64,000 bases of DNA, taken from assembly GCA_017397845.1 (NCBI GenBank), contig JAFQHU010000016.1, forward strand, positions 1 to 64,000. The letters run 5' to 3'. Every line of letters begins with the position of its first letter. Within the stretch, counting starts at the first letter, position 1. The position numbers and the translations under genes were made by a program. The notes under the pieces were generated by a model that did not search any database, had not been told where the DNA came from, and saw only the letters and a list, made by a program, of their open reading frames with translations. This stretch comes from Clostridia bacterium (GTDB taxonomy: Bacteria > Bacillota > Clostridia > Oscillospirales > Acutalibacteraceae). This document shows, in pieces, positions 17,928 to 27,238 of the stretch.

Positions 17928-17973
17928 ATAAAAAAATAAACCTCTGTACCGAAAAAAATTCGGACAGAGGCGT
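17928..17973 (-). terminator. T-box terminator
   Basis: Minus-strand stem CCTCTGTCCGAA / TTCGGTACAGAGG followed by TTTATTTTTTT. Together with the upstream AGTGGAACCGCG sequence it forms the terminator half of the antitermination switch. Confidence 0.85.
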
Positions 17974-18187
17974 AAAAAAACGCGGTTCCACTCTGACTTA
18001 TTACTCAGCTACATAATAATAGCTTCGCCGTTAACGCCGGCACACGCCCTCAGATACTGTATTTCCCCTTGGGTGCTGACGGGTGCATTTCATCACTTCT
18101 TCATCGGAGCACTTTCACCTTACTGCTCCTCTCTGGGATGAAGGGGATGTGATTACTTCTCCCTTTTAACGCATTTGTTTATTTCTT
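17974..18187 (-). promoter_or_regulatory. T-box leader, Cys specifier
   Basis: The minus-strand leader contains the conserved T-box sequence AGAGTGGAACCGCG (about 17980-17994), a long stem I with an AGTA motif near its base and a distal loop around GAGCAGTAAGG, and a specifier loop reading GAAATGCA. The UGC codon there (18085-18087) specifies cysteine, which matches the cysE-cysS genes it precedes. Binding of uncharged tRNA-Cys would favour the antiterminator. Confidence 0.9.
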
Positions 18188-24886: not shown

Positions 24887-24917
24887 TGGTCCGAGTGACA
24901 GGACTTGAACCTGCGGC
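24887..24917 (-). pseudogene. tRNA-Pro 3'-end fragment, copy A
   Basis: These 31 bases are identical to the T-arm, acceptor strand and CCA end of the intact tRNA-Pro gene (27162-27192). The match stops at the variable-loop side, after which the sequence is unrelated to a tRNA. Confidence 0.85.
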
Positions 24918-25104
24918 TACCTCTCGCAGTTCCCAAAATCGCTTTTCGGCTTGGAGCGCCGAGCGATTTTGACCGCTGCGCCTCAATCGCACTCCCTTCA
25001 TCCGCCACCGGCGGCGGTCGTGTTCTGAGCCTGACCCCTTGGGGGTCAATCGACCGTATAAAACAAAAAAGAACCGCTCTTTCAAGCAGTTCTTCTTCAA
25101 CTGG
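24887..25104. repeat. Island direct repeat, copy A
   Basis: About 215 bp repeated at 26948-27164 with roughly 95% identity by eye. It starts with a tRNA-Pro 3' fragment, then carries palindromes (AAAATCGCTTTTCGG paired with CCGAGCGATTTT, GCCACCGGCGGCGG, GACCCCTTGGGGGTC) and the hairpin GAACCGCT...AGCAGTTC with its T run. The open reading frames across it end in tRNA-derived peptide and are not genes. Confidence 0.85.
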
Positions 25105-25155
25105 TGCGGGTGTTCACAAGGGATTATAAATGCTATTAATAATTAAATTCAATTC

Positions 25156-25873: not shown

Positions 25874-26494
25874 TCATATTCTTTTTTTTTGAACTACTGT
25901 CGGTTTTTTATTCGTAAGATATTTTGTTTTTATATATCCCACCTTACCATTATAAATAACTTTACTCCAACTATTTTTTGTTCCTGTTCTCTTTATGCTT
26001 TTGGATTTTTTCAATGTACCCAGAGATTTGCTGTTAGATGAAGCTTTCGCTCTAATCTTTACATTCTTTGTTGTATAAACAGTTTCATTCTTTTTTGTTT
26101 TTACTGTAATAACCTTACTGTAAGGGCTTTTTTTAGTTTTCTTACCTTTACTATTATATGCTCTGACTTTAAAATAATATTTCTTATTACCATTAAGACT
26201 TTTTACTGTAAATGATGTTTTTTTCGTCTTGGCAACAAGCGTCCATTTTTTCTTGTTAGTACTCCTATAAATGCGGTATGAGGTTGCGTTTTTAGTTTTA
26301 CTCCACTTTAATTTTACCGATGTCGATTTGATGTTACTTGATTTCACCGTAGGCTTTTGATTGATTGAAATGCTTTTGCTTGAAGCGGCGGTTACGATAA
26401 AGTCACTATTGTCAACATAAACAATAGTAGAAAAAAACATCAGTATTACCATTGAAGTCGCAATAAGTTTTTTAAGATTTTCCACTAAATTCAT
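25874..26494 (-). CDS. Secreted FN3-SH3 domain protein, 5' part of a frameshifted gene
   Basis: Signal peptide about 1-37 ending near VTAAS. Fibronectin type III-like domain about 46-133 (KLKWSKTKNATSYRIYRS, KYYFKVRAYNSKGKKT). Bacterial SH3 domain about 139-197 (NVKIRAKASSNSKSLGTL, VGYIKTKYL). Very Lys/Ser-rich. It ends four codons after nine consecutive A bases that shift it out of the WG-like frame. The ATG (26494) touches the AAAGG site. A GTG three codons later (26485) is better spaced. Probably a cell-surface protein; ligand unknown. Confidence 0.7.
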   Translation of the reverse strand: MNLVENLKKLIATSMVILMFFSTIVYVDNSDFIVTAASSKSISINQKPTVKSSNIKSTSVKLKWSKTKNATSYRIYRSTNKKKWTLVAKTKKTSFTVKSLNGNKKYYFKVRAYNSKGKKTKKSPYSKVITVKTKKNETVYTTKNVKIRAKASSNSKSLGTLKKSKSIKRTGTKNSWSKVIYNGKVGYIKTKYLTNKKPTVVQKKRI

Positions 26495-26564
26495 CCTTTC
26501 ATTTTGTTTTGCAGATTTATTAACACTCGCACCAATAATACTTCACACTTTATTTATCTCCGCA

Positions 26565-26598
26565 AAATAAAAAAGTGCGCCAACCGAAGTTAACGCAC
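26565..26598 (-). terminator. Terminator of the candidate structured RNA
   Basis: Minus-strand stem GTGCGTTAAC / GTTGGCGCAC with a TTCG tetraloop followed by TTTTTTATTTT. It lies upstream of the FN3-SH3 gene, so it ends another transcript or acts as an attenuator. Confidence 0.85.
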
Positions 26599-26780
26599 CG
26601 AAAAACGCAAACCCCGATTGTCGCTACACAAACTAAATTAGAACTAGGGTATTATTCCCATACTCATTTTAGTGGAGTTTACGGTTTTACCAACTCACAA
26701 AAAAGTATGAGAAAATAAGATATAATTATCCCCTAAAAAGATAAAAATACCGCCAATTCTAATTATTCAGTTTGTGTAGC
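26568..26780 (-). ncRNA. Candidate structured RNA, about 210 nt, unknown family
   Basis: The predicted transcript starts at 26780 with GCTACACAAACT, which pairs with AGTTTGTGTAGC at 26623-26634. The stem continues as AATTAGAA / TTCTAATT. Inside, TTCTCATACT pairs with AGTATGGGAA around an apical hairpin (GTGAGTT / AACTCCAC), leaving a large asymmetric internal loop. A strong terminator follows the closing stem. No open reading frame of note lies in it. The overall shape, a closed rod with an internal bubble, recalls 6S RNA, but I see no sequence signature. A leader with attenuator for the FN3-SH3 gene, or a MITE-like element, are alternatives. Confidence 0.5.
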
Positions 26781-26786
26781 ATAATT

Positions 26787-26816
26787 AGTATATCACAAAA
26801 GTTTGCATAATTTCAA
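26787..26816 (-). promoter_or_regulatory. Promoter of the candidate structured RNA
   Basis: Minus-strand -35 TTGAAA (26811-26816) and -10 TATACT (26787-26792) with TGTGA before it, spacer 18 bp. The start predicted seven bases downstream coincides with the first base of the closing stem. Confidence 0.6.
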
Positions 26817-26823
26817 TACTATA

Positions 26824-26876
26824 ATAAAAAATCCCACTTGACAACTTTGCAGTTTAAACAGAAAGTGTCATAGTGG
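26824..26876 (-). terminator. Long-stem terminator upstream of the candidate RNA
   Basis: Minus-strand arms CCCACTATGACACTTT and AAAGTTGTCAAGTGGG pair over about 15 bp (one bulge, one mismatch) and are followed by ATTTTTTATTAT. It isolates the RNA gene from transcription coming from the tRNA-Pro side. Confidence 0.75.
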
Positions 26877-26947
26877 GTTATATACTTTGAATGTAAGATA
26901 TAAAAAAATTGAGTATTCACAGGTCAAATCCCTTATGAATATCAATA

Positions 26948-26978
26948 TGGTCCGAGTGACAGGACTCACACTGCGGCT
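26948..26978 (-). pseudogene. tRNA-Pro 3'-end fragment, copy B (decayed)
   Basis: Same 31-base tRNA-Pro 3' segment as at 24887 but with several substitutions in the T-arm (GACTCACAC in place of GACTTGAAC), so it cannot fold as a T-arm. Confidence 0.75.
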
Positions 26979-27164
26979 ACCTCTTGCGGTTCCCAAAATC
27001 GCTTTTCGGCTTGGAGCGCCGAGCGATTTTGACCGCTGCGCCTCAATCGCACTCCCTTCATCCGCCACCGGCGGCGGTCGTGCTCTGAGCCTGACCCCCT
27101 GGGGGTCAATCGGCCGTATAAAACAAAAAAGAACCGCTCTTTCAAGCAGTTCTTCTTCAACTGG
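26948..27164. repeat. Island direct repeat, copy B
   Basis: Second copy of the 215-bp unit. Its right end runs straight into the intact tRNA-Pro, so here the unit reads as tRNA 3' flank: terminator hairpin GAACTGCT...AGCGGTTC with TTTTTT, then the palindromes, then another tRNA 3' end. Confidence 0.85.
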
Positions 27165-27238
27165 TCCGAGTGACAGGACTTGAACCTGCGGCCTCTTGAC
27201 CCCCAGTCAAGCGCGCTACCAAGCTGCGCCACACCCGG
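27162..27238 (-). tRNA. tRNA-Pro (GGG)
   Basis: Complete cloverleaf: acceptor CCGGGTG/CACTCGG with C1-G72 typical for bacterial tRNA-Pro, anticodon loop CTGGGGG (anticodon GGG), T-arm GGTTCAAGTCC, encoded CCA. It is the source of the 3' fragments at 24887 and 26948. Confidence 0.95.

Follow-up and report, generated by a model that had tools for sequence, protein, structure and literature searches.

A riboswitch-like leader RNA family, probably a transcription attenuator, before unrelated accessory genes in Clostridia

The window analyzed here is a stretch of 64,000 nucleotides from a Clostridia bacterium (contig JAFQHU010000016.1), and all features of the locus lie on its minus strand. There is an upstream intrinsic terminator (CCCACTATGACACTTT.../...GTTGTCAAGTGGGA plus a T run, 26822..26877; -17.3 kcal/mol, z -3.5), which insulates the unit; a homologous block also precedes another copy in the same genome (C21b) and several relatives. 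The promoter has the -35 box TTGAAA, an 18-nt spacer and the extended -10 box TG-A-TATACT (26787..26816), with a predicted transcription start at 26780. By itself the promoter scan stays at chance level in this AT-rich region (3 sites for an expectation of 2.6), and the call is supported instead by conservation, since 167 of 205 homologues have an equivalent promoter at the matching position before their 5' arm. The predicted leader RNA (26565..26780) has about 210 nt and is composed of a rod, a switch region and a terminator. Its first base is also the first base of the 5' arm of the closing helix P1 (GCTACACAAACT, 26769..26780), to which the 3' arm (AGTTTGTGTAGC, 26623..26634) is a perfect complement over 12 bp. 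A variable stem inside the rod (26655..26713; strands TTCTCATACT at 26713-26704 and AGTATGGGAA at 26664-26655) bears an apical hairpin with the conserved loop UAAAA (GUAAAA, 26690-26685). The leader ends in an intrinsic terminator, GGTGCGTTAAC-TTCG-GTTGGCGCACT at 26565-26599 (with a shorter stem, GTGCGTTAAC-TTCG-GTTGGCGCAC, at 26565-26598), followed by TTTTTT, for which the terminator scan gave 1 found against 0.2 expected. The promoter, the start, the arms, the apical stem and both terminators had been placed in these positions by a first-pass annotation made from the sequence alone, and all of them were corroborated.

The downstream gene (25874..26494) encodes a secreted protein that combines fibronectin type III and bacterial SH3 domains (FN3-SH3). 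It may start at ATG 26494 or at GTG 26485, the latter being better spaced from the AAAGGA ribosome site, and no promoter-like site was found by the window scan between the leader terminator and the gene start. The ORF stops just past a run of nine A (25874-25900, minus strand) and, with one base fewer, would fuse with the next ORF (25842-25156), which is WG-repeat-like. For this reason, we regard the gene as split, with a homopolymer indel, a phase-variable tract or a faulty assembly as the candidate causes. A second conserved block, TGYGGRGATAAA...GTGTAGC...GGAAGGAG...TCCRCA, was observed between the terminator and the gene (26496-26564, minus strand), with a closing hairpin and an internal GGAAGGAG that resembles a ribosome site. 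This block is present in about a dozen copies of the leader, mostly of the genus of the window, and directly follows the terminator in L010, L015, L017, L018, L020, L040, L041, L050 and L217. It is without Rfam match and is possibly a second, translational control.

The leader (26780-26565) folds at -77.1 kcal/mol (z -8.8), a value not reached by any of 200 shuffled sequences, and three of the copies from the same genome gave z values from -7.6 to -9.4. A scan of the element against Rfam 15 at E <= 10 returned nothing plausible, the best matches being eukaryotic snoRNA models (E 1.9). Furthermore, no Rfam match overlapped the element above chance in 40 homologous loci (20 near and 20 far); matches to the Gut-1 model were detected nearby, none of them overlapping it. 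The first-pass description of a structured RNA without recognizable signature is thus upheld. In the article texts searched, no matching motif was found. The family is apparently undescribed and large, although a fragment of it may be listed without name in the supplements of large surveys, for example among the thousands of candidates of PMC8040213.

A nucleotide search in the genome of the window (2.3 Mb) revealed four further full-length copies with 70-78% identity. A covariance model built on the 3' part of the element (R1) raised the count to 9 copies in this genome, so that 8 further diverged copies had escaped the first-pass annotation. Matches to the same model occur in 29 of 34 genomes from the genus, in 140 of 394 from the order and, across the class Clostridia, in 80 of 341 genomes belonging to 52 of 203 genera, about a quarter, with up to 26 copies per genome. 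No element was detected by R1 in the ~240 genomes of other classes among 249 drawn from the phylum Bacillota, an absence that doubles as a false-positive control for the model. The named records are gut and rumen Clostridia, namely Oscillospiraceae, uncultured Christensenella, one Lachnospiraceae and Pumilibacter intestinalis. There was no match in plasmids, while phages gave two weak partial matches and viral contigs three matches, which indicates that this is not chiefly a phage or plasmid element.

The closing helix of the rod is maintained by compensatory changes. A closing helix spanning 90-190 nt is carried by 197 of 205 unique elements. In 57 homologues, 97.7% of the P1 cells are paired and 7 of the 12 pairs show double-sided changes. 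Arm variants among the elements include GCCAAAC/GTTTGGC, GCTACAC/GTGTAGC, GTCACAC/GTGTGAC, GCGACAC/GTGTCGC and ACCACAC/GTGTGGT; covariation of the two arms, for which the first-pass annotation had proposed a test, is strong. The interior stems vary freely, and the apical hairpin GAAUUUG-nUAAAAAnG-CAAAUUCC is kept in most elements.

The segment that follows the rod has two alternative partners, both overlooked by the first-pass annotation. First, RNAalifold pairs this segment (CAAUCGGRGUUUGCG) with the terminator's own 3' half. In the window, the resulting antiterminator is formed by CAATCGGGGTT (26610..26620) and AACTTCGGTTG (26581..26591), pairing with 26591-26581, plus GCG 26608-26606 with 26595-26593. 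Its 3' strand comprises the end of the terminator 5' arm, the loop and the start of the 3' arm; terminator and antiterminator, both conserved, are mutually exclusive because the same bases (26581..26591) serve in both. Their energies are nearly matched in the window (-16.4 kcal/mol for the antiterminator vs -14.3 for the terminator). Each of them covaries in a set of 31 sequences, the terminator being 98-99% paired with many double-sided changes. Second, the 3' side of the apical hairpin (CGTAAACTCC, 26674..26683) pairs with 26615-26606 (GGGGTTTGCG, 26606..26615) in a long-range pseudoknot, whose 3' strand overlaps the antiterminator 5' strand. In the 57 homologues, 98.4% of the pseudoknot cells are paired, with double-sided changes at 5 of 10 pairs. 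There are therefore three competing states, the apical hairpin, the pseudoknot and the antiterminator, and the terminator is their read-out.

These pairings were evaluated by several controls. In the 57 diverse full-length homologues, P1, apical hairpin and antiterminator together are 94.9% paired with 99 doubly changed cells (slid controls <=48%), and P1, pseudoknot and terminator together are 98.3% paired with 118 doubly changed cells (slid controls <=44%). The pseudoknot is also element-specific: the duplex formed by an element's own strands has -12.3 kcal/mol, against -8.5 when strands are swapped among elements, and it was better in 36 of 37 divergent elements (0 of 5000 permutations). 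Where the post-rod segment of these 37 elements has diverged, the apical strand has diverged alongside. Compensatory deletions, with one base lost on both strands, were found in L091 (GCAACTCC/GGGGTTGC) and L050 (GCAATTCC/GGAGTTGC). Shuffle controls leave kinship in, and more weight is given to the element-swap test and the slid controls; the covariation of antiterminator and pseudoknot is not independent, because one conserved strand is common to both.

The position of the elements relative to genes is equally constrained. Of 197 elements, 191 are followed by a gene in the same orientation, while the upstream gene gives 107:75. With gene starts called by a simple home-made gene caller, genes begin at a median distance of 27 nt from the T run, and for 104 of 184 this distance is at most 30 nt, which leaves no room for a second promoter in about half of the copies; in about 10% of them, the distance exceeds 200 nt. 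A ribosome site is present in 177 of the downstream genes. Judged by position, the element would form the 5' leader of the gene that follows on the same strand, with transcription of both from the leader's promoter. The 141 downstream proteins include 16 with BspA-type LRRs, 9 zinc ribbons, 6 AMP-binding enzymes, 5 DUF6809 and 5 SHOCT proteins, two AbrB/MazE-like proteins, two HTH regulators and many short secreted proteins and lipoproteins, and two of the copies in the genome of the window precede DUF6809 genes. No common pathway was found among these 141 proteins. Defence-system models gave only scattered single matches to them, arguing that these are not defence loci. The family is probably one regulatory module placed before many unrelated accessory genes in Clostridia.

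Taken together, the leader is very probably a cis-acting, riboswitch-like transcription attenuator, which agrees with the alternative offered by the first-pass annotation, that of a leader attenuating the FN3-SH3 gene. What the computation shows is the set of helices and how they exclude one another, the specificity of the pseudoknot to each element, and the position before genes; we infer the OFF/ON direction as well as the existence and nature of the signal. RNA polymerase would start at the built-in promoter (26780) and produce the long rod closed by P1, and the post-rod segment (CAATCGGGGTTTGCG) would then choose between its two partners. In the OFF state, the segment would fold back onto the 3' strand of the apical hairpin to form the pseudoknot, the terminator would form and transcription would stop after about 210 nt; this state is read as OFF because the antiterminator strand is hidden in it. 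In the ON state, the apical hairpin would stay closed, the segment would pair with the 3' half of the terminator and the polymerase would continue into the gene. The two states lie within a few kcal/mol of each other (-75.4 ON vs -79.3 OFF in the window, with the loop cost of the pseudoknot uncounted), and the choice may be set by a putative factor that stabilizes or breaks the pseudoknot. For this factor, a protein seems less likely than a small molecule or an ion that binds the rod and the apical loop. The element presents an aptamer-like conserved fold (rod and UAAAA hairpin) coupled to an expression platform by a pseudoknot that overlaps the antiterminator. However, target genes without a common pathway are unusual for a metabolite riboswitch, and the tandem promoter-leader-terminator units described below are not needed for simple cis control. 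The unrelated targets suggest a general signal rather than one metabolite.

The main rival is a sub-case of the attenuator in which an RNA-binding protein reads the UAAAA hairpin or a pseudoknot strand and thereby selects either the terminator or the antiterminator. The conserved hairpin loop and the unrelated targets would suit a dedicated protein regulator, but we regard this version as rather unlikely. The BglG-type RNA-binding domain PF03123 occurs in 0 of 34 genomes of the genus and the LoaP model NF033641 is over cut-off in 0 of 34, giving NusG-level background only; BglG/SacY- or LoaP-dependent leaders accordingly find no support in these 34 genomes, and a protein of another type might escape both models. 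Ribosome-mediated attenuation through ATG uORFs found no support either. ATG uORFs with a ribosome site are present in 15 of 197 elements vs 18 in shuffles, and none in the window copy; non-ATG starts with a ribosome site number 111 vs 66 in shuffles, an excess that the conserved GGAG segment probably explains.

Several copies lie at tRNA genes. The leaders have a strong tendency to follow a tRNA gene of the same strand (Val, Arg, Pro, Leu, Ala) at a distance of 100-600 nt, as in L001, L002, L003, L005, L015, L018, L020, L024 and L025 among others. Of 174 elements, 32 have a tRNA gene no more than 650 nt upstream, encoded on the same strand in 31 cases, against 2 of 183 with one downstream. 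At one tRNA-Val site, the tRNA and the leader are common to three species and the cargo is different, while two of the three share the far end of the cassette together with a 30-47 nt copy of the 3' part of the tRNA. In the window, the leader-FN3 cassette lies between the two copies of a direct repeat of ~220 bp (26948-27168 and 24888-25105). The repeat includes the tRNA-Pro 3' end as well as another copy of a tRNA 3' end, an arrangement that resembles site-specific insertion, or duplication, at a tRNA gene. Whole promoter-leader-terminator units are also found in tandem, 2-4 in a row with no genes between them, their arms intact but of different sequence, so that the structure is kept despite divergence. 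Tandem arrays before one gene were observed in L100, L099, L101 and L102; L100 has a decayed 3' remnant, and in L102 a truncated start of the gene stands between units. Such units would multiply promoter dose and the fold-change of the switch.

These arrays, in which each gene-free unit is structurally intact, are what a stand-alone, multi-copy trans-acting sRNA might produce, with the downstream genes as mere neighbours and read-through as incidental. Each unit is moreover a complete transcription unit with its own promoter and terminator, and the rod is very stable. The first-pass annotation had favoured a stand-alone ncRNA of this kind, a reading that we now find quite improbable, since the genes are nearly always co-directional, half of them within 27 nt of the T run and mostly with no room for a further promoter, and the combination of terminator, covarying antiterminator and pseudoknot is typical of a cis-acting transcription switch, the antiterminator being without purpose in a stand-alone RNA. 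A MITE-like or other repeat element, with the inverted arms as transposon ends, would account for the copy number, the inverted arms, the frequent location at tRNA genes and the cassette-like flanking repeats. This possibility, raised in the first-pass annotation, is very improbable: conservation runs past both arms (promoter outside on the 5' side, switch and terminator outside on the 3' side), orientation is fixed relative to genes and the arms covary. The resemblance to 6S RNA noted there is superficial. The closed rod with internal loops is shared, but a 6S-like RNA that binds RNA polymerase has next to no chance of being correct, as the genuine RF00013 match of this genome (57.6 bits) lies away from the leader locus at C21:274885 and the copies stand directly upstream of genes.

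The attenuator may be part of a larger arrangement, which we put forward as a speculation. A portable promoter-plus-switch module could spread, duplicate and capture exchangeable cargo beside tRNA genes, so that a single signal, read by the RNA, would govern an open-ended set of unrelated accessory genes and tandem units would make the response sharper, as an integron-like RNA expression platform.

Among known systems, preQ1 and ZTP riboswitches are gated by a pseudoknot and use an antiterminator/terminator platform. The element shares with such riboswitches the 5' leader position, the long-range pseudoknot, the mutually exclusive terminator and antiterminator and the ribosome site right after the T run, but it has no match to an Rfam class, carries its own conserved promoter, shows no pathway theme and reaches up to 26 copies per genome. 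T-box leaders (RF00230) are likewise long and structured, with terminator and antiterminator. However, the element does not match this model, the only T-box of the window is located at 17963-18178 (minus strand, 99.9 bits), and the targets are not amino-acid genes. With 6S RNA (RF00013) it shares the closed rod, whereas only C21:274885 matches that family and the element lies in cis to genes and has a predicted terminator switch. In type III toxin-antitoxin systems, the ToxI RNA, with promoter and terminator, is located just before ToxN. The element also has promoter and terminator immediately before a gene, but it is without Rfam match and no toxin family recurs among the downstream genes. 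Finally, orphan riboswitch candidates have been described, some of them before Clostridia surface-protein genes (SLH motif, PMC6429828; PMC8632094; PMC11109978), and the text descriptions compared here do not match the architecture of the element.

The RNA catalogues seem to have missed a large riboswitch-like class that occurs in about a quarter of the sampled Clostridia and reaches 26 copies in a genome. A probable reason is that the bacteria carrying it, from gut and rumen, are uncultured. Candidates for a general signal are a second messenger, an ion or the growth state, and the identity of this signal would reveal when these abundant gut bacteria express the accessory genes concerned, among them those for surface proteins and lipoproteins. 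Since genes are exchanged while the leader stays in place, ideas on how such regulons arise can be tested directly.
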